Shown here: positions 2,841 through 27,501 of the stretch, in pieces
How positions within the stretch are numbered: position 1 is the stretch's first letter
Layout of the letters: every line of letters starts with the position of its first letter
Virus record (IMG/VR): IMGVR_UViG_3300033981_000172
Location: 1 to 27,501 of that record
Origin: a virus
Direction: 5' to 3' (one strand)
Length of the DNA: 27,501 nt
The notes under the pieces: generated by a model
The model's input: the letters and a program-made list of their open reading frames with translations, nothing else
What the model was told of the DNA's origin: nothing
Databases searched by the model: none
Program-made: the position numbers and the translations under genes

Positions 2841-4145
2841 ATGAATATCGAAAAATCTTATTGGTCCAGTAATGGCGATGATATTAGTTTATCTATTCCT
2901 TTCACAAAAGTCAATCGTGAAAAGAGAACAGTTTCTGGTTTTGCAACACTAGACAACATTGATCAAACAGGAGATGTTGTAACCGCAGAAGCAAGCTTAA
3001 AAGCTTTTGAAGGTTTTAGAGGCAATATCAGAGAAATGCATTCATCCAATGCAGTTGGCAAAATGGTTTCATTTAGACCAGAAACTTATTATGATACAAA
3101 ATCAGGTGAATTTTATAATGGAGTATATGTAGATGCATACATATCAAAAGGCGCACAAGATACCTGGGAAAAAGTTTTAGACGGAACTCTTCAAGGATTT
3201 TCAATTGGCGGAAAGATTGTAGATTCAGAAAACGAAGTAAATAAGTCTACAGGAAATCCAGTAAGATTTATTAAAGAATACTCATTGATAGAACTATCAG
3301 TTGTAGATTCACCAGCAAATGAATTATGTAATATTTTATCTATTCAAAAAATGAATGGACAATTAATTTTTAAAGGAATAGCAGCAGATACCATTACGGA
3401 AAATATTTTTTATTGTGAAGATAGTGATTCCGTATTTATGTCAACAGAAGCAACCTATACCTCACCAGTAACTGGCAAACTAGCAAGTTTAATTGGCTGG
3501 GTAGAAACTAACGATGTTAACAAAGCAAAAGAAATAGATAAAATTCTTGCTTCATTTAAGAAGTCAAGATTTACGTTGCCTGAAACACAAATAGCAAAAC
3601 AGGCAAACGCAAAAGGAGGTAATGAAGTGTCAGAAAACACAGAAACAGTAGCAGTTGAAGAAACTGCTCCAGTAGAAGTTTCAATCCCTGCAGAAGCAGT
3701 AATTGAAAAAGCTGTTACAGAAGATGTAGTAGCAGATGCTTCTGCCGAAATCGTTGAAAAAGCAGCAGACGTCTCAGAAGTCGTCGTTGATGAACCTGAT
3801 TTTGCAAAAATGTTAGGTGACCTAAAAGGCTTTTTCTCAGAAACTCTAAGCAAGGCTTCAGAAGCAAATGCAGCACAAGTTACAACTATTAAAGAAACAG
3901 TTGAATCTTTTAGCAAGAGCGTAGAAGCCAGAATATCAGAGTTGGCAGAACAACACTCAGAACTCAACAAAACTGTTGAGAACATCAAAAACACGATTGA
4001 TGGTGTAGAAAAGCGTGTCGATGCAGTAGAATCAGAGACTGCAATTAAGAAGTCCTCAGACCTTGGCGGGTCTCAGGAAGTAAAAATCCAAAAATCAAAA
4101 TGGAATGGTTCTTTCCTCGGTTCCGTAAACGAACTATTTAAATAA
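2841..4145 (+). CDS. Prohead protease with C-terminal scaffold domain
   Basis: 434 residues from the ATG at 2841. The TTG at 2805 would sit in the 3' arm of a terminator hairpin, so I prefer the ATG. Residues ~1-165 are an HK97-type (S78/U35) prohead protease: 'SGFATLDNIDQTGDVV', candidate catalytic His67 in 'REMHSSN', Ser121 in 'LQGFSIGG', and the family motif 'IELSVVDSPAN'. After a ~90-residue linker domain, residues from ~263 are Glu/Ala/Val-rich, then heptad-like ('VTTIKETVESFSKSVEARIS', 'LNKTVENIKNTIDGVEKRV'), as in scaffolding/delta domains. The protein would guide shell assembly, then cleave scaffold and itself before DNA packaging. The major capsid gene follows after 18 bases. An internal start at 3627 probably yields the scaffold separately. 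Confidence 0.92.
   Translation: MNIEKSYWSSNGDDISLSIPFTKVNREKRTVSGFATLDNIDQTGDVVTAEASLKAFEGFRGNIREMHSSNAVGKMVSFRPETYYDTKSGEFYNGVYVDAYISKGAQDTWEKVLDGTLQGFSIGGKIVDSENEVNKSTGNPVRFIKEYSLIELSVVDSPANELCNILSIQKMNGQLIFKGIAADTITENIFYCEDSDSVFMSTEATYTSPVTGKLASLIGWVETNDVNKAKEIDKILASFKKSRFTLPETQIAKQANAKGGNEVSENTETVAVEETAPVEVSIPAEAVIEKAVTEDVVADASAEIVEKAADVSEVVVDEPDFAKMLGDLKGFFSETLSKASEANAAQVTTIKETVESFSKSVEARISELAEQHSELNKTVENIKNTIDGVEKRVDAVESETAIKKSSDLGGSQEVKIQKSKWNGSFLGSVNELFK
3612..3620 (+). promoter_or_regulatory. Internal ribosome binding site inside protease gene
   Basis: AAAGGAGGT is one of the best Shine-Dalgarno sequences in the window, yet it lies in the middle of the protease reading frame. Seven bases after its last G of GGAGG is a GTG (3627-3629) in the same frame as the protease. 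An out-of-frame ATG at 3622 is too close to the site and its frame closes within about ten codons, so the in-frame GTG is the sensible start. Confidence 0.6.
3627..4145 (+). CDS. Nested in-frame scaffold protein (internal start)
   Basis: 172 residues, identical to the C-terminal part of the protease, starting at GTG behind a strong internal ribosome site. The start falls exactly at the change from folded protease/linker sequence to an acidic Ala/Val/Glu-rich stretch followed by a predicted coiled coil ('FFSETLSKASEANAA', 'LNKTVENIKNTIDGV') and a short basic tail ending 'FLGSVNELFK'. Known parallel: lambda Nu3 scaffold is translated from within the C protease gene in the same frame. Inference: free scaffold is made in excess over protease-scaffold fusion to build the prohead, and the basic C-terminal tail contacts the capsid protein. 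The composition and ribosome site are seen; separate expression is not proven. Confidence 0.6.
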   Translation: MSENTETVAVEETAPVEVSIPAEAVIEKAVTEDVVADASAEIVEKAADVSEVVVDEPDFAKMLGDLKGFFSETLSKASEANAAQVTTIKETVESFSKSVEARISELAEQHSELNKTVENIKNTIDGVEKRVDAVESETAIKKSSDLGGSQEVKIQKSKWNGSFLGSVNELFK

Positions 4146-4163
4146 AGGGTAGGTAAATAAATT

Positions 4164-5222
4164 ATGAGCAATGAATTATTAGAAAAGGCAATTGCAACTG
4201 GCACAACAGCCACAGGCACTTTCGCTTCAACAACTGGAGGAGAAGGAATTCACACAGGGTCAGAAAGTGGCAATGGTGGATTACTTAATCCAGAACAATC
4301 AGCTCGATTTCTAGACTACATGTTCGACGCAACCGTAATTGGTAAAGTCGCACGTACCGTTAGAATGAAATCTGATACAACTGAAATTGATCGCATGGGC
4401 GTAGGCGAAAAGCTTATGAAGCTTGCGACAGAAGGAGATGACGCAAACAGTGGCAACTCTGCTGTGACATTCTCAAAAATTTCTTTGACAACAAAGAAGT
4501 TACGTCTAGATTGGGAACTTTCAACTGAGTCTCTAGAAGACAACATTGAAGGTGCAGATCTAGAAGATCATATTGCACGTCTGATGGCAACACAGGCTGG
4601 TAATGATATTGAAGACTTGGTTCTTAACGGAAACACAGCTCTATCATCTGATCAACTTTACAAAGCATTTGACGGAACAGTTAAGCTTGCAAAAGCAAAC
4701 GGTCACGTAGTAGATGCAGGTGGAGCCGCAATTAGTCGTGCTACATTTAATAGCGCATTAAAGGCACTTCCACGTAAGTACAAGCAACGTCGTACAGACC
4801 TTCGCTTCTTGTCAGGTTCAAACTTGATTCAAGATTATTTATACTCAGCATCATTACTTGGTGCAGATGGATCAGCTAACCCACAAGATATCGCTTCAAG
4901 CGTTATCCGTGGAGGCGTACAGCCACTAGGCGGTCCAGCAGGATACGTAGCACCTTTCGCATTTGGTATTCCAATTGTTGAAGTTCCGCTATTAAGCGAG
5001 ACACAAACTGGCTCATACTCAGGAGCAACAGGATCACACGGTGACGTCCACTTGACATTCCCAAATAACGTAGTTATTGGTATCAAGCGTGATGTAACTG
5101 TATACCGATTCTTCTGGCCAAAGAAGGACTCAATCGAGTACACAATGTATACTCGTGTTGGCGTTCAAATTGAGCAAGCAGACGCTTGGGTAGTAGTAAA
5201 GAACGTTAAGATTGCTTCCTAA
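4164..5222 (+). CDS. Major capsid protein, HK97-like fold
   Basis: 352 residues. It follows the protease-scaffold gene directly, as the shell subunit does in HK97-type head modules. The N-terminal ~50 residues are Gly/Thr/Ser-rich and may be flexible or trimmed. Then come 'LNPEQSARFLDYMFDATVIG' (N-arm/E-loop entry), 'LRLDWELSTESLEDNIEGAD' (spine helix entry), 'NDIEDLVLNGNT', 'ALPRKYKQRRTDLRFLSGSN' and 'FAFGIPIVEVPLL', a block order typical of HK97-fold capsid proteins. Start ATG has AGGGTAGG about 10 bases upstream. Arginine codons are almost all CGN (14 of 15), unlike most neighbours, consistent with very high expression. A perfect hairpin terminator follows 18 bases after the stop. Confidence 0.95.
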   Translation: MSNELLEKAIATGTTATGTFASTTGGEGIHTGSESGNGGLLNPEQSARFLDYMFDATVIGKVARTVRMKSDTTEIDRMGVGEKLMKLATEGDDANSGNSAVTFSKISLTTKKLRLDWELSTESLEDNIEGADLEDHIARLMATQAGNDIEDLVLNGNTALSSDQLYKAFDGTVKLAKANGHVVDAGGAAISRATFNSALKALPRKYKQRRTDLRFLSGSNLIQDYLYSASLLGADGSANPQDIASSVIRGGVQPLGGPAGYVAPFAFGIPIVEVPLLSETQTGSYSGATGSHGDVHLTFPNNVVIGIKRDVTVYRFFWPKKDSIEYTMYTRVGVQIEQADAWVVVKNVKIAS

Positions 5223-9699: not shown

Positions 9700-10025
9700 A
9701 TTTAGCCGCTTTATTAGGAGAAGTTTTTCTTTTAGGTAATTGGAAAAATTACGAAGAATTAGAAGAAAGCCTCTCAATGCCAGAACTGATACAAACATTT
9801 AAGGCAATGCAAAAAACTGAAGATGAGAAAAGAAAATTCTTAGCATCTCTTCAGGGAGTAAACTTAAATGATGAACAAGAAAAAGAAGGTCCTACATTTG
9901 ACGACATACGAAGAAGGGCTCTTGGAGTAAAAGCAAGCGGTAGTGATGTACTATCATTACAAGGAAGCTTTGCCTCAGAAGCAGGATTCGGAATAAACGC
10001 AGGTTTAGGATACTCTAAGGAGTAA
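9367..10025 (+). CDS. Tail assembly chaperone, -1 frameshift fusion (gpGT-like)
   Basis: A fusion of join(9367..9663, 9663..10025), about 219 residues: 99 from the short form, then 120 in the -1 frame. The -1 frame is open only from 9654 (TGA at 9651 in that frame) to TAA 10023-10025, so slippage must occur between 9654 and 9699, and CCCAAAC at 9657-9663 is the only fitting heptamer. The downstream part has 'LDLAALLGEVFLLGNWKNYE' and 'SMPELIQTFKAMQKTEDEKR', then 'DEQEKEGPTFDDIRRRALG', the helical T domain that binds the tail tube protein while the G part binds the tape measure. An internal ATG (9777) exists but has no ribosome site, so separate translation of the T part is unlikely. Confidence 0.82.
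9657..9710 (+). promoter_or_regulatory. Programmed -1 frameshift signal: slippery CCCAAAC plus nested stem
   Basis: C CCA AAC (9657-9663) is an X-XXY-YYZ heptamer in the correct phase of the short chaperone frame. Five bases later AGCGGC (9669-9674) pairs with GCCGCT (9705-9710), and inside it GTTCTG (9679-9684) pairs with CAGAAC (9691-9696) around a six-base loop; both stems are perfect 6-mers. Slippery site, spacer and stem together match the known layout of frameshift sites in tail chaperone genes. Confidence 0.8.
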
Positions 10026-10036
10026 AATTATAGTAA

Positions 10037-13000
10037 ATGGCTGAAGAACAGATAGTCACCCGAATAGTCGCCACGTCCGACTTTTCAAATCTTATCGCAG
10101 ATCTCGGTAAGGTATCTTCAGCCTTAACTAATCTTCAAACAAAATTAAACGCAACAAATAAGAATTTAGCAGCACAAGTTGCTGTAATGAATCGTTCTTT
10201 TGCAGACACACTTAGAAGCACTGGACAATTTTCCACACACTTTGTAAATTTAACATCTGATGTAGATAAATTTGGATCTCAATTAGACAAAGGCCAAATC
10301 AAATTAAAACAATTTTTTCAAGTATATCAAGGACATTTAAAAACTAATGGCGGATTAATTAGACAATTAGCTCAACAACAAGTTCAGCTACAAAATGCAA
10401 TTCTTCAACCTCTTGGCAAAAATGCCGAAGGTTTGATGCAGTACAATGTTCACATTCCAACTGGCCTTGATAAGGTAAAAAGCAAAACAGCTTTAGCAAG
10501 ACAAGAACTACAAATTATGAATCGTGTAGTTCAAGAAGGAGCAAACTCATTAATTAATTGGGGTAAGAATACCCAGTGGGCTGGTCGTCAATTAACCGTA
10601 GGATTAACTGTTCCATTAGCAGCATTTGGAGCTGCATCTGCAAAAGCATTTCGAGAAGCCGATCAAGAGTTAACTCGTTTAACAAAGGTTTATGGTGGTT
10701 TAGCTGCTACATCAGCAAGTGATTTAGGCAAAATAAGAAAACAAGTTACTGAAACCGCATCTGAATTATCTAAAGCATACGGTTCTTCATTTAAAGAAAC
10801 AATTGCATTAGGTGCTGACATTGCTGCAACTGGAAAGCAAGGTAACGAATTATTAGGCTCAATTAAAGAAACAACTCGTCTAGCAGTTCTTGGTGAAGTA
10901 GATAGACAAGATGCAATGAAGGCAACATTAGCAATTCAATCTGCATTCAAACAAAATACTGATGAACTAGCAGAATCAATTAACTTTTTAAACGCAGTTG
11001 AAAACCAGACATCAACAACTCTTAATGACTTAGTAGAAGCAATTCCTAAAGCTGGTCCAATTATTAAAGGTCTTGGAGGTAGCGTAGAAGATTTAGCATT
11101 GTATTTAACTGCAATGAGAGAAGGCGGAATCAATGCATCAGAAGGCGCTAACGCTTTAAAGTCAGGACTTGCATCTTTAATTAATCCAACTAAAGTAGCA
11201 AAAGAAATGTTTGCTGGATTTGGAATATCATTAACTGACATTGTTCAAAAAAATGCTGGAAACACAACAAATACATTATTGGCATTACAATCAGCATTAG
11301 ACAACTTAGATCCATTACAAAAACAACAGGCATTAGAACAATTATTTGGTAAATTCCAATTTGCTCGTATGAATGCTTTATTTGAAAACCTTGGAAAGCA
11401 AGGAAGCCAAACCTTACAAGTAATGGATTTAATGAAAGCAAGTTCTCAAGATTTAGCAAACATTGCTGGTCGAGAATTAAGTATGGTTACAGAATCCGCT
11501 TCTGGTAAGTACAGGAGAGCTCTTGAAGGATTAAAGGCAGATCTAGCTGTAGTTGGCGAACAGTTTTTAACAATAAATACACATCTAATAAATATTGTTA
11601 GTGGAATATTAAAATTTATAGATAAATTACCTGGACCAATAAAAACAATTCTAGCTTTCTTTGGAGGACTTACTGCGGTAGCTGGACCACTTATTATGCT
11701 TACTGGTGTTCTTGCAAACTTCTTTGGTTATGTAATTAAAGGTGCATCTCATTTTAGAGCTATGTTTAAAGGTGGAGAAGGCTGGAGACTCTTAACACCA
11801 GAAATACTTGCAGCAAATAAAGCAGGGTCACTTGCAGAACAAACATTTTATAGTGATGCTAAAGCAGCAGATATATTAAATCAAGCAATATCTAGACTGT
11901 CTGCTTCATATAATAAATTAGCAGCAGATGCATCAAATGCAATAATTCAAACAAACCCAGGAGTATCTACTATGGGTGGAACAAATATTATTGCTGGACA
12001 AAGAGTAGTAAATCCTAATCACCCGCTTGTGGGAGAGGTAGGCACAAGAGCTGCTTCACACCATAATCCAAGAGCATTAATGAGTAAAGGACAAAGAGAT
12101 GCTCAAACAATTCACTCTGTTACCCCAGGATCAATTGATGTAAATCAAAAAATAGGAACTGTTCCTCAAATATTTATGGCAGGGGATCTGCCAAAAATTG
12201 AAGGATTAACATCTTCAAGAGGGGCTTCTACGGGAATAGTTGCTGGAGAAGCAGCAAAGTGGCATTCTCTAATGGGTACATTGTCTATGATGACAAAAAG
12301 AGAAGTTGCAGATTTAAAGAAAGAAATTGCTAGAACAGGAACATTTAGCACAGAAATAAATACTACATTCGGACAGCTTCTTCCAGCAATGACAAAAATA
12401 ACAACCAATGCAGCATCACAATCTGCATTAATTGTTCAACAACTACAAGCAGGAAAAATTACGTTAGATACTGCTCGTGCAAAAATTATTGCAATAAATT
12501 CACAGCTAGAAGCAATGATGGCGCAAACAACTGCTCAAGTTGCTGCAGATCTTGGAAGAACCGCTAATTTAACACAAGTTCCTTTAATTAATCAGCCAAT
12601 AGTTGGACCTACAGGTAAAGCAAACATTAAAGAAATTTTTAGACCAAATAGGCCAGCATCAAAAATCATAGATAAAATTGCAAGATCTCTTGGGGTAAGG
12701 ACATACGGGGCAGGATATTCAACAGAAACAACAATGCCAAAGAAATTTGCAACAGGCGGAATGGTTGTTCCTGGGCCAAGATCAGACACAACAGATACTC
12801 AATTTATGAATTTGGTAGAGGGAGATATTGTATTAAATAGAAAAGCATCAGATAATTTAATGGGTTACAATCAAGGTGGAAAAGTAGTACCAGCAATGGT
12901 AACTCCTGGAGAAATTATAATTAATAATCCGACACCATCAGAATCTGAAATGCTATTAGCCTATAACAATCAATTTGCAGTTGGCGGCAGGGTTGTAGCT

Positions 13001-23291: not shown

Positions 23292-25253
23292 ATGGCAGCA
23301 TATCAAGATTTATTAAAAGACACCTCAGTTGCCGTAGAAAACGGTAATTATTTTGTCGTAACTATTACAGATCTTGAATTAAATACAAACTACCCAATTC
23401 AACTTAGATGGAAATATAAAGATGGAACATTTGGATTATGGTCTGCATCAAAAGTTTTAACTACTCCAGGAGAAACTCTTCCAGGAACTCCAGACCTACC
23501 AGTTGGCAGTGTAACTGCAGAGCCAGGTTTAATTAAAATAACTTGGAACGGAAATGATGCAGCTGGCAGAGCAATTACAAATATAGATAGAATTGATATA
23601 TATATTGATGGTTCTCCATTCGATGGAACAAAGCCAGCAGGAAGTTTTAAAGCTGCAGGCACACAAACAATTGCAGCACCAGCAGGAGAGTATGCAGTAG
23701 CATTATATGCTATATCAAATTATGGAAGTAGATCTGCAGTAAGTTTACCAAGGTCAATATTGGTTCCAGCAGTTGGAGAAATTGTTTTATCTCCAGAAGA
23801 TCCAGACACACCAATAGTAACTGCAGGACTAGCTTCTGTTATTGTTGAATGGAGCGGTAAAAGTTTAGATACAAATGGCGACCCAGTAGACTTTACTAAA
23901 GGTAGTTTTGCTGGAGCAAAAGTATTTATAGGAACAGCATCTAACTTTACACCAAGTAACGATAACTGGGTTCACACATTAAATTTTGCAAATGGATCAA
24001 ATAAAGTTTCAATAGGTGTTGGAACTATTATTGATAAAACACTAGGAACACTTCTTCAATATGGAGTTCCGTATTATATTAAAATAGATACAATAAATGC
24101 TAATGGGGTTGCAAATGGGCAACCAGTTTCTGCAGACGGTAACCCAATTACTGTATTAAAATTACCAGCTAGCGAAATAAGTACTGGTACATTAACTGCA
24201 GATAACTCAATTACAGCAGGAGTTAGCGGAGGTCAAAGAGTTGTTATATCTGGAAGCTCCTCTCCATTTATTATCTATGGAACAGACGGAACTACAAAAT
24301 TATTAGAATATTTAACATCTGGAACTACTGGGACACTTGCAATAAAAGGATCTGGAACATTTACTGGAGATTTAGAAATAGGATCAGGCAACACAATATT
24401 TAAAGCTGTGCCAGCAACTGGAATCTGGTTAGGAAATGCTAACTATTTAAGCGCTCCATTCCGTGTATCTAATAGCGGATATATTACAGCAACATATGGA
24501 GATATTGGTGGATGGAATTTAGGAGAGTCTTACCTACAAAACTCTACAGGAACTTTAAAAATAAATAGCGGAACAGATCCAAATATATTTTTAGGAAGTA
24601 GTTCTGGGTATCATTTTAGATTAACCCCATCTTCCATCTCTCATTATAATGGCGGATCTCCAACTGGTAAATTTACATTAACAGCATCTCCTGGAACTGG
24701 AGACTCACATTTATCTATGTCTGGAAATATAACTGGCTCAACAATTACAGGATCTTCTTTTACATTAGTAGAAGGAAGCACTGACAATGTATGGAATACT
24801 ACAAGATTTAGAATTGGAGATTCAAATACAAAAATTGAATCTATAAATGCTACTGGAGTAATAACATTATATTCAGGACAACTACCTGCTGATATTGAAG
24901 GCGGAGGCGCTGGTACTTATCTTGATTCAAAAATAGAATTAAGTACATCTGGTTTAAAAATATATAATATTCCTACTCTTGGAAATAATGTAACTGCAAT
25001 AGGTAGACTAACACTAAATGCAGATGGAACTAGCGGAGCACCAAATACGGCAATCACTCAGTATGGGTCTGAGTATCCAGCAAGCACAGGGTACGGATCA
25101 GCTGCAAGACAAAGAATGATTGTTTCTGATCCTTACAATAATAACATGTTAAAAAGAGGTTTTGGCGTGTACTACGGAACTAGAACTACTGCACAAGCAG
25201 AACCATCTCCTACCACAGGAGTTGTTGGAGATATCTGGATTAGCTGGGCCTAA
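23292..25253 (+). CDS. Host-specificity tail fibre with FN3 domains
   Basis: 653 residues. Two to three FN3-like domains occupy residues ~1-285 ('YPIQLRWKYKDGTFGLWSAS', 'LPVGSVTAEPGLIKITWNGN', 'GEYAVALYAISNYGSRSAVS', 'GLASVIVEWSGKSLDTNGDP'). Next comes 'LPASEISTGTLTADNSITAG', a stem found in gpJ-like and related fibres, then a Gly/Ser/Thr-rich repetitive beta part ('TGDLEIGSGNTIFKAVP', 'GSTITGSSFTLVEGSTDN') with the look of a trimeric beta-helix shaft. The end 'TTGVVGDIWISWA' resembles the last strand of fibre tips. It is probably the main receptor-binding protein. ATG is one base after the upstream stop; its own stop overlaps the next ATG (TAATG). Confidence 0.78.
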   Translation: MAAYQDLLKDTSVAVENGNYFVVTITDLELNTNYPIQLRWKYKDGTFGLWSASKVLTTPGETLPGTPDLPVGSVTAEPGLIKITWNGNDAAGRAITNIDRIDIYIDGSPFDGTKPAGSFKAAGTQTIAAPAGEYAVALYAISNYGSRSAVSLPRSILVPAVGEIVLSPEDPDTPIVTAGLASVIVEWSGKSLDTNGDPVDFTKGSFAGAKVFIGTASNFTPSNDNWVHTLNFANGSNKVSIGVGTIIDKTLGTLLQYGVPYYIKIDTINANGVANGQPVSADGNPITVLKLPASEISTGTLTADNSITAGVSGGQRVVISGSSSPFIIYGTDGTTKLLEYLTSGTTGTLAIKGSGTFTGDLEIGSGNTIFKAVPATGIWLGNANYLSAPFRVSNSGYITATYGDIGGWNLGESYLQNSTGTLKINSGTDPNIFLGSSSGYHFRLTPSSISHYNGGSPTGKFTLTASPGTGDSHLSMSGNITGSTITGSSFTLVEGSTDNVWNTTRFRIGDSNTKIESINATGVITLYSGQLPADIEGGGAGTYLDSKIELSTSGLKIYNIPTLGNNVTAIGRLTLNADGTSGAPNTAITQYGSEYPASTGYGSAARQRMIVSDPYNNNMLKRGFGVYYGTRTTAQAEPSPTTGVVGDIWISWA

Positions 25254-27501
25254 TGTCAGCAAAAATTTATGTTAAAGTTACACAAGATTTGTGGAAGCCA
25301 GCAAATAGAATTTATGTTAAAGTTACACAAAATTTATGGAAACAAGTAAATAGAATTTATGTCAAAGTTACACAAAATTTATGGAAAGCTACATTTGGCG
25401 CCGATAACTCACCAGTACAAATAACTAGACCTAAATTAACTGGAACTGGTAGAGTTGGAACTACAGTAACTAGATCCTCTGGAACATATAGCAATTATAA
25501 TTCATTAATTACTAGAATATTTTATACAACTGAAGTTGCTGTTCAATCTTCTGGGTCTACCGATGATCCTAGTGGAGGAAATGTAACATCTACAAATCCA
25601 TATACAATTACTGAATACGATGCAAATCCACCGCCATATTATTTTTATGCAAGAGATGAAGTAGTTGGAGTAGATAATGTAACCTATTATTACTACAGCA
25701 CACCTCCAATTGAAGCACAAGTTCCATCTTTGTCAGATGATTTTAATAGAACTGTATCGGTTGGATTAGGTACTGCAAGTGGTGGATTTACTTATGGCGG
25801 ACCATCAAGAGGCAACAATACCTGGAGTGTAAATGGAAGCAGGGCAGTAAATTCTTCTGGCGATTTAGGCGACAACCCAATGAAAACTGTTGATGCAGGT
25901 AGTTTTAACCAATCGGTTTCTGTTGATACTTTTGGTGGTGGCCTTGGAGCAGCAGTATGGGTAGCATCAACATCTTCTTTTTGGTCAGTAGTACCAGATT
26001 ATACATATATATTAAATCCAGGTGATGGCTTTGTTTATAGATGTTCAACTAATTTAACTACAATATACGATCCAAATGAAGATTGTCCACCTTTAGCAAT
26101 ATTAGGATCAAATCCACAATCTGAAGGATATACATTTAGTGATGTTGGATTAAGATGTAGTGCATGTACTACATCAACAACAAATGTAACAACTTATCCA
26201 TGCACACTTTCAGCAACATCATACTCATGTCCAGACACTGGTCCATTAGGCGGAGATAGGTGTACTTCTTGTGCAACTTCTAGTAGCTATCCATGTACTG
26301 GAAGCATAGTTACAACTTCAACCTGTCCAGATTTTGGATCAATAGGTGGAGATAGATGCACTGCTTGTACAGAAAATGCAACTATAACAGAGCAGTTAAC
26401 TTGTTCTGGATCAAATTCAGGAAGCACTTGTCCAGGAACTGGAAGCTTAGCAGGACAAAGATGCGGTGCTTGTAACTCTGTTGCAGCATGTACTGGATCA
26501 CAAGTTTCTACAACCTGTCCAGATACTGGACCAAACGTAGGAGATAGATGTGGATCTTGTTCAGGAGAACCAGAAACAATTTCTGTATTAACCTGTTCTG
26601 GATCTGATAGTTCGACATCTTGCCCAGGTACTGGAAGTTCTGTAGGACAAAGATGTGGTGCTTGTAACTCTTTTGCATCATGTAGTGGTTCTACTACAAC
26701 TAGTTCATGTCCAGATACTGGACCAAACGTAGGAGACAGATGTGGTGCTTGTTCAACAAATATAGATTCTTACATTACAATAACTTGTTCTGGTTCTAGC
26801 TCTGGAGGATCTTGCCCAGGTACTGGAAGTAGTGTTGGACAAAGATGTTCATCATGTAGTTCATCTACATCAACTTCAAATCTTTGTACTGGTTCTAGCA
26901 GCTCAGCATCTTGTCCAGGCACTGGGCCAAATGCTGGAGACCGATGCGGTGCATGTTCTTCTAGCACTTCAACATCTTATTCATGTACTGGATCAGGTAC
27001 ATTTGCATCACCACAATCAACGGGAGGTTGTAACGCAAGTAGAGTAAACCTGGCATGTTCATTTACTGGAACATCTGGAACTGGAGATAGGTTAAGATAT
27101 AACTATACATTATGTCGAGCAAATAGCACTACAACAAATACTTATGCTATAAGACAAAGTGTAACAACAACAACCTATAGCTGGTCAACAAATCAATCTC
27201 AAACCATAACAACAACAAGCTATAGCTATTCAGTTAGAGTACAAGCTTATACTTATTCAACTAATGCTTATCAAAATCAAACAATAATATATTATACTTA
27301 TGCAATTAGACAACAAGGATATACATGGTCAACAAATGCGCTTGAAAATGTTACAACATATACTTATACATATCAGGTAAGAGATACAGCACTTGGATAC
27401 ATATACACTAAGAGAGATACTGTTACTGAAGAAGTTACTAGAAAAACATATTATGCAGTAGAAGAAGTTTCTGCAGATGTGTATACTTATTACTCAGAAT
27501 T
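25253..27501 (+). CDS. Cysteine-rich repeat fibre/adhesin (3' truncated by window)
   Basis: The frame is open from the ATG at 25253 (overlapping the previous stop, TAATG) to the window end: 749 residues and no stop. Parts in order: three 15-residue repeats 'IYVKVTQNLWKxxNR' (residues 5-49); a bacterial Ig-like domain (~55-156, 'PKLTGTGRVGTTVTRSSGTY'); a LamG/ConA jelly roll (~162-259, starting 'SDDFNRTVSVGLGTASGG'); a Cys-rich array (~264-621) with 40 Cys and eight clean units of CPxTGxxxGxRCxxC followed by C[ST]GS; and a Tyr/Thr-rich region (~623 to the end, 'TYSWSTN', 'AYTYSTN', 'GYTWSTN'). There are no Cys before residue 264 or after 621. As the last gene of the fibre cluster it is likely a surface-exposed tail fibre. 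The array could be disulphide-linked or metal-binding; I know no family with this repeat. Confidence 0.85.
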   Translation, partial: MSAKIYVKVTQDLWKPANRIYVKVTQNLWKQVNRIYVKVTQNLWKATFGADNSPVQITRPKLTGTGRVGTTVTRSSGTYSNYNSLITRIFYTTEVAVQSSGSTDDPSGGNVTSTNPYTITEYDANPPPYYFYARDEVVGVDNVTYYYYSTPPIEAQVPSLSDDFNRTVSVGLGTASGGFTYGGPSRGNNTWSVNGSRAVNSSGDLGDNPMKTVDAGSFNQSVSVDTFGGGLGAAVWVASTSSFWSVVPDYTYILNPGDGFVYRCSTNLTTIYDPNEDCPPLAILGSNPQSEGYTFSDVGLRCSACTTSTTNVTTYPCTLSATSYSCPDTGPLGGDRCTSCATSSSYPCTGSIVTTSTCPDFGSIGGDRCTACTENATITEQLTCSGSNSGSTCPGTGSLAGQRCGACNSVAACTGSQVSTTCPDTGPNVGDRCGSCSGEPETISVLTCSGSDSSTSCPGTGSSVGQRCGACNSFASCSGSTTTSSCPDTGPNVGDRCGACSTNIDSYITITCSGSSSGGSCPGTGSSVGQRCSSCSSSTSTSNLCTGSSSSASCPGTGPNAGDRCGACSSSTSTSYSCTGSGTFASPQSTGGCNASRVNLACSFTGTSGTGDRLRYNYTLCRANSTTTNTYAIRQSVTTTTYSWSTNQSQTITTTSYSYSVRVQAYTYSTNAYQNQTIIYYTYAIRQQGYTWSTNALENVTTYTYTYQVRDTALGYIYTKRDTVTEEVTRKTYYAVEEVSADVYTYYSE
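25265..25399 (+). repeat. Three tandem 45-bp repeats at start of Cys-rich fibre gene
   Basis: Units at 25265-25309, 25310-25354 and 25355-25399 encode 'IYVKVTQDLWKPANR', 'IYVKVTQNLWKQVNR' and 'IYVKVTQNLWKATFG'. Units two and three differ at few bases in their first two thirds. A conserved Trp-Lys ends each strand pair, like the short 'vyVkv.g.Wk' repeats seen near the start of other phage fibres. Confidence 0.9.
26324..26899 (+). repeat. 192-bp super-repeat (three copies) encoding Cys-rich units
   Basis: Cys-Pro unit starts fall at 26228, 26324, 26429, 26516, 26621, 26708, 26813 and 26912. Units alternate in spacing (105 and 87 bases) and in type (CPDxG..GDRC, then CPGTGS..GQRC), so a 192-bp pair repeats exactly from 26324, 26516 and 26708. 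Copies starting at 26516 and 26708 are almost identical over their first ~35 bases. One single unit precedes (26228) and one follows (26912). Confidence 0.9.

Follow-up and report, generated by a model that had tools for sequence, protein, structure and literature searches.

Phage tail proteins are usually regarded as poor in cysteine. The last gene of the virus record IMGVR_UViG_3300033981_000172 encodes a tail protein in which 40 cysteines are crowded into a single array, and this locus raises the question of what holds such an array together and what it might do. The window analyzed here is the whole stretch of 27,501 nucleotides (positions 1 to 27,501 of that record), and the features of the array gene are listed in Table 1. 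The window represents the structural module of a siphovirus, in which genes for the portal, protease, head proteins, tape measure and minor tail proteins lie upstream of the array gene. The latter directly follows the tail genes, and in relatives tail-fiber genes also precede the corresponding family member. The immediately preceding gene of the tail module (23292-25253) encodes a 653-residue protein with no PHROG or Pfam match. A complete version of the array protein, of 844 residues, is found in the IMG/VR relative L003, and is identical to that of the window across the visible part; immediately downstream, L003 encodes a small cysteine-containing protein (CLNCPSLIKATKTCKKCGCFM...CPLGKW; 9936-10211). 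Both the portal (55-58% identity) and one tail protein match Streptomyces phages. These similarities suggest that the host of the window phage is actinobacterial.

Table 1. Coordinates of the array gene and its parts within the window.
Feature	Position	Strand	Remarks
Tail protein gene with Cys array	25253..27499	+	749 codons within the record, which ends before the 3′ end of the gene
N-terminal triple 15-residue repeat, IYVKVTQxLWKxxNR	25264..25387	+	Tandem 45-bp repeat, three copies, 92% matches
Jelly roll (ConA/lectin-like), first half	25736..26008	+	DFNRT...GGGLGAAVWVASTSSFWSVVPDYTY, no Cys; 242 IMG/VR relatives; fold predicted with AlphaFold2 and Foldseek
Insert between two adjacent jelly-roll strands	26009..27484	+	Residues 253-744; same site in all relatives
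Cys array	26042..27115	+	40 Cys in ten four-Cys units, C[ST]GSx(5-8)CPx[TF]GxxxGxRCxxC
Unit 1, diverged, long loop	26042..26167	+	CSTNLTTIYDPNEDCPPLAILGSNPQSEGYTFSDVGLRCSAC
Unit 2	26201..26272	+	CTLSATSYSCPDTGPLGGDRCTSC
Unit 3	26294..26368	+	CTGSIVTTSTCPDFGSIGGDRCTAC
Unit 4	26402..26473	+	CSGSNSGSTCPGTGSLAGQRCGAC
Unit 5	26489..26560	+	CTGSQVSTTCPDTGPNVGDRCGSC
Unit 6	26594..26665	+	CSGSDSSTSCPGTGSSVGQRCGAC
Unit 7	26681..26752	+	CSGSTTTSSCPDTGPNVGDRCGAC
Unit 8	26786..26857	+	CSGSSSGGSCPGTGSSVGQRCSSC
Unit 9	26885..26956	+	CTGSSSSASCPGTGPNAGDRCGAC
Unit 10, diverged	26984..27115	+	CTGSGTFASPQSTGGC...ACSF...YNYTLC, from translation
Cys-free return segment, alternating-Tyr repeats YAIRQ..YTWSTNA..	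27116..27484	+	Terminal part predicted to return to the jelly roll as a long strand
Jelly roll second half, first residues	27485..27499	+	Remainder past the end of the record, seen in L003 and L004

All 40 cysteines fall within residues 264-621, and the other 391 visible residues have none; this count over the reading frame bears out the confinement noted in a preliminary description of this DNA. The pattern CPx[TF]GxxxGxRCxxC occurs eight times, at nt 26228, 26324, 26429, 26516, 26621, 26708, 26813 and 26912, with start-to-start spacings of 96, 105, 87, 105, 87, 105 and 99 nt. The strict form, CPxTG, has seven matches, against none in 100 shuffles. The eight units first described are thus recovered when T or F is allowed, but their border had been placed one cysteine too late. 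The natural unit begins at C[ST]GS and continues through CPxTG to GxRCxxC; ten four-cysteine units of this kind, eight of them clean and the first and last diverged, account for every cysteine, and nine of the ten contain CxxC. The alternation of 29- and 35-residue spacings (87 and 105 nt) was correctly described. The 192-bp period is exact for the steps from 26429 to 26621 to 26813 only; for the other unit type, the step that follows, from 26708 to 26912, is 204, and TRF finds 2.2 copies. Nor are the DNA copies nearly identical, as had been stated, since the best pair is 71% identical and TRF gives 76% matches. Elsewhere in the protein, the IYVKVTQxLWKxxNR repeat is kept in L003-L005 and in L038, in a diverged form in L004 and L038.

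That the frame might not be translated had been named as a way in which the preliminary description could fail. Between close relatives, dN/dS across the array is 0.26-0.48, and all 36 of the cysteines that can be aligned between L003 and L004 are kept at 81% identity, the other four falling in a gap. These comparisons indicate that the array frame is translated and under purifying selection. They also bear on the idea that the array is a functionless filler, rich in Ser, Thr and Gly, that has drifted and carries cysteines by accident. Such drift would account for the simple composition of the inserts and for the fact that related inserts often cannot be aligned, but it is disfavored by the selection on the frame, by the retention of the cysteines and by the strict parity of their number described below, and we consider it scarcely credible.

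Profiles of the first jelly-roll block were compared with viral contigs, which gave 175 and then 242 relatives, the best 80 of each being kept. The family extends over more than two hundred uncultured phage contigs in IMG/VR. Besides L003, relatives of the array gene include L004, L005 and L007 (801 residues from the start codon, 36 cysteines), L008/L009 (666 residues, 28 insert cysteines), and L021 and L038/L044 (30 and 44 cysteines). In this comparison, two conserved, cysteine-free jelly-roll halves border every insert, namely DNFNRT..LGT...GVAFWVT..NSWWA..Y before the array and ..L.LY..VSGT....G.IK.P...N.GT..DNFS after it. The scaffold profile also matches proteins of about 3,000 residues, for which Pfam names DUF6531, in 12 of 297 actinobacterial genomes. 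In these RHS/DUF6531 proteins, the profile of an insert-less phage domain aligns straight across the insert site (best domain E-value 9e-17, for a small set of loci), and the site is occupied by a hairpin of a few residues. The array is therefore inserted into a hairpin of a known kind. It interrupts a single hairpin of a lectin-like jelly roll and does not fit the free-standing rod repeat that was first envisaged; the 192-bp repeat is only a local version within a set of inserts that differ completely from phage to phage. Several of the RHS/DUF6531 proteins (L318-L326) carry tandem, insert-free scaffold copies, mostly with a single CC pair, and the domain may have been exchanged between the tails of phages and the surface proteins of their hosts.

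The earlier statement that the array belongs to no described family is borne out, in that the array-bearing protein has no sequence match in Pfam, PHROG, the PDB or cultured phages. The whole protein gives no Pfam hit at E<=1, and hence none to EGF, TNFR/GCC2_GCC3 or similar cysteine-repeat families; the scaffold has no curated match in Pfam or PHROG in 6-8 members, and a sequence search of the PDB with the scaffold profile returned nothing significant. Searches by tblastn with the whole protein, the array alone and a small member found no cultured phage (low-complexity masking may have obscured the array, though it should spare the scaffold), and the family has no sequence match among 50,697 phage records. 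In genome contigs, the array pattern gave single matches only, with no reading frame containing more than one copy of the motif, and these matches are taken as chance. Text searches of the literature, which cover few subscription journals and so constitute weak evidence of novelty, found no description of such proteins.

Insights into the fold were obtained from the simplest family member, L204, whose gene (4001-4777) encodes a mirror-like ladder of 14 cysteines, with CDTCYQTCYQTCYQTCYQTCYSC on the way up and YNCNPYNCNPYNCNPYSCNPYSCNC on the way down. The AlphaFold2 model of this protein, computed from 42 sequences (pLDDT 89.6, pTM 0.75), is a two-sheet beta-sandwich jelly roll. Strands 79-99 and 154-177 form a ribbon that leaves the jelly roll: the last strand of the first half extends outward by about 20 residues, a second long strand leads back, and between the two the tip makes up a small region of its own. 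The model thus predicts a stalk in the form of a two-stranded beta-ribbon, carrying a cysteine-rich knob. For the 685-residue domain of L003, structure prediction yielded a pLDDT of about 25 in the array, whose fold was not obtained; the predicted base strands, 83-112 and 565-597, mostly scored 70-88. The stalk and knob are therefore a prediction for the family, and we infer a similar arrangement for the array in the window. Matching lengths of the up- and down-strands were considered as further evidence, and were set aside as too irregular and available for few relatives.

A Foldseek search of the PDB with the L204 model placed the central fiber of mycobacteriophage Douge first (E-value 1.4e-3, probability 1.00, TM-score 0.47, the E-values being modest), followed by GH43 proteins, rotavirus VP8*, VIP36, ERGIC-53 and legume lectins. 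In BFVD, the matches were uncharacterized proteins of uncultured Caudovirales phages and then tail proteins of Rhodococcus, Gordonia and Streptomyces phages. The tail fiber of Rhodococcus phage ReqiPepy6, a fold match, was considered as a sequence homologue and rejected, as neither profiles nor hhalign detected a relationship. Given its fold and the precedent of the Douge central fiber, the jelly roll may bind carbohydrate.

To examine how the cysteines might be paired, profiles were used to delimit the insert and the two flanking halves of each domain. Every one of the 87 distinct complete domains, among them those of the window's group, is cysteine-rich (6-64 cysteines), with the proviso that many family records are fragments and that the domain borders are those given by the profiles. 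One of the 87, L233, has no detectable second half and was left out of the insert count. The inserts occupy the same site and are otherwise largely unrelated in sequence: some are ladders (L204, CYQTCYQTCYQTC...CNPYNCNPYNC), others are CDQSQVTNTSNPPAGNCCSGV repeats (L242), irregular knobs (L178) or tandem four-cysteine units (L240). In L240 (850-3162), about a dozen units of the form CTGGTVSCTDSTNTCTPSNSCGT are followed, on the return path, by about a dozen cysteine-free TYTRTSPSN repeats. One contig, L254, has two copies of the jelly-roll protein (1376-2221 and 4001-4840).

The number of cysteines in the insert is even in all 86 delimited inserts, a set that comes from searches seeded mostly by one scaffold profile and whose members are related to varying degrees. 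When inserts are clustered by identity, the number is even in 59 of 59 clusters at 70%, 47 of 47 at 50%, 36 of 36 at 40% and 27 of 27 at 35%, with p-values from about 3e-18 (59/59) to 1.5e-8 (27/27). Odd totals arise in four domains, each with one stray cysteine in a flank. The parity of S, T, N, Y, G, Q, A and P in the inserts is about 50%, and other reading frames of the same loci with at least six cysteines are divided equally, 12 even and 12 odd. Inserts that are at least 50% identical and differ in cysteine number do so by two (13 pairs) or four (9 pairs) only.

The preliminary description had left open whether the units are braced by disulfides or are a string of zinc knuckles, with one metal ion per four-cysteine unit. 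Taken alone, the window is compatible with the latter, in that every unit has four cysteines, nearly all with CxxC, and 40 is ten times four. In the family at large, however, the cysteine number, though always even, is 2 mod 4 in 26 of the 59 clusters, about 40% of the 86 inserts are not multiples of four, and related inserts can differ by two; metal-thiolate sites do not predict such parity, and no Pfam zinc family is matched. Metal knuckles are thus very improbable as an explanation, and of the two options first offered it is the disulfide that is favored. The even number, often 2 mod 4, and the differences of two or four together argue that the insert cysteines would be paired by disulfides within one chain.

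As judged from aligned sequences, the inserts diverge far faster than the scaffold, and they recombine. Among pairs whose first halves are 70-80% identical, the inserts are 31% identical at the median; in individual pairs, first halves 85-87% identical go with inserts only 26% identical, and across N-terminal halves 70-90% identical, insert identity is down to 25-31% in many pairs. Synonymous divergence between L003 and L004 is 0.24 in the array, versus 0.44-0.49 in the flanks, with an abrupt change at the array; between L004 and L005, it is 0.17 in the array, versus about 0.05 in the flanks. L004 and L005 differ by 0-4% in the flanks and by up to 23% inside the array. Moreover, L005 is closer to L003 than to L004 near residues 425-475 and 650-675, despite flanks almost identical to those of L004. 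The three relatives are thus mosaics, and L003 and L004 differ in array length by one unit, in line with the earlier proposal that the array could change length by recombination. Reverse transcriptase (PF00078) is absent from the ten nearest records, which may be incomplete genomes; recombination and ordinary mutation are therefore the likely sources of insert variation.

These rates also speak to whether the insert could be a mere spacer, i.e., a rigid, protease-resistant rod laddered by disulfides that lengthens the tail tip while the jelly roll itself binds. The ladder of L204 and the tandem units of L240 and the window do look mechanical, and the jelly roll has a lectin-type fold. A spacer, though, would have no need to diverge faster than the rest of the protein, and insert identity is 25-31% where that of the scaffold is 75-85%; some inserts are also irregular knobs without repeats, whose sequences are very different. 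We therefore regard the spacer as unlikely, albeit the most serious of the alternatives considered.

A lectin-like domain that ends a tail protein and bears a fast-changing, disulfide-braced projection is most simply read as a module for host contact. Our proposal, which we hold to be probable, is that the array is a hypervariable, disulfide-braced receptor-contact insert in the jelly-roll domain that ends a tail-tip or tail-fiber protein, in an uncultured siphovirus whose host is probably actinobacterial. A pair of jelly-roll strands would extend outward as a beta-ribbon stalk; the cysteine units would form small disulfide-braced knobs or ladders that line this stalk and reach past it; and the cysteine-free, tyrosine-rich strand would run back into the jelly roll. 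The insert would present the exposed surface that touches the host, and would be replaced, shuffled and re-sized between phages while the scaffold is kept. The bacterial cytoplasm is reducing, and thioredoxin, as a linked oxidation helper, is absent from the window's group and occurs elsewhere in the contig in four of 20 family records; the intrachain disulfides would thus most likely form once the virion has left the cytoplasm. The thioredoxin-encoding contigs (L222, L236, L245 and L199) hold larger family members, and in L222 a protein matching a beta-1,4-glycosyltransferase family (phrog_13126, E-value 1.9e-120; 1640-2731) is encoded upstream of the family member. More tentatively, and at somewhat less than even odds, the design may be antibody-like as a whole: on a constant scaffold with a lectin fold, a single hairpin would open out into a disulfide-braced stalk and knob of almost unlimited sequence, whose paired cysteines close after lysis, and which is exchanged as a recombining cassette to change host range.

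The family is of interest because the variable part of a tail protein seems to be held by disulfides, against the expectation that such proteins are cysteine-poor. It would provide a natural source of small, disulfide-stable binders to bacterial surfaces, and a testable case of how a virion assembled in the cytoplasm gains many correct disulfides; any new set of sequences can be put to the simple test of whether the cysteine count is even. Among known systems, the RHS/DUF6531 domains of L318-L326 are homologous to the scaffold to either side of the point of insertion, and differ in having a turn of a few residues and few cysteines, and in belonging to cellular proteins. The Douge central fiber gp20 (8zdp) is, like the family, a tail-tip protein of an actinobacteriophage, and its likeness comes from the fold search, no sequence relation to the family having been detected. 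Its domains bind mycobacterial glycans and its terminal domains resemble carbohydrate-binding proteins; the word 'disulfide' is absent from the text of the article (PMC13033339). Proteins diversified by DGRs share with the family a hypervariable module on a conserved tail-protein scaffold. DGR variation consists of adenine-directed substitutions, whereas the family varies in length, cysteine number and whole sequence. Receptor-binding proteins such as the Tentaclins exemplify this DGR class (PMC10743442). Agrobacterium phage Milano likewise has extensive disulfides in its virion despite assembly in a bacterial cell; there, a network ties sheath and baseplate subunits and resists contraction (PMC10811340). 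The bonds of Milano lie between subunits, whereas the parity in the family points to bonds inside one chain and limited to one variable insert.

The closest likeness in design is to the bovine ultralong CDR-H3, in which a beta-ribbon stalk likewise rises from one hairpin of a beta-sandwich and bears a disulfide-rich knob with a varying number and pattern of cysteines. The bovine inserts reach about 70 residues and have the conserved motifs CPDG and YxYxY (PMC5994613), which the CPDTG and YTYTY-like stretches of the phage protein resemble; the phage inserts range from about 105 to more than 600 residues. The cow uses an immunoglobulin VH scaffold, an insert encoded by a D gene, and AID; the phage uses a ConA-like jelly roll, with phage evolution and recombination. 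The resemblance is one of architecture, with no homology, and the family would represent a second, independent evolution of the stalk-and-knob idea.
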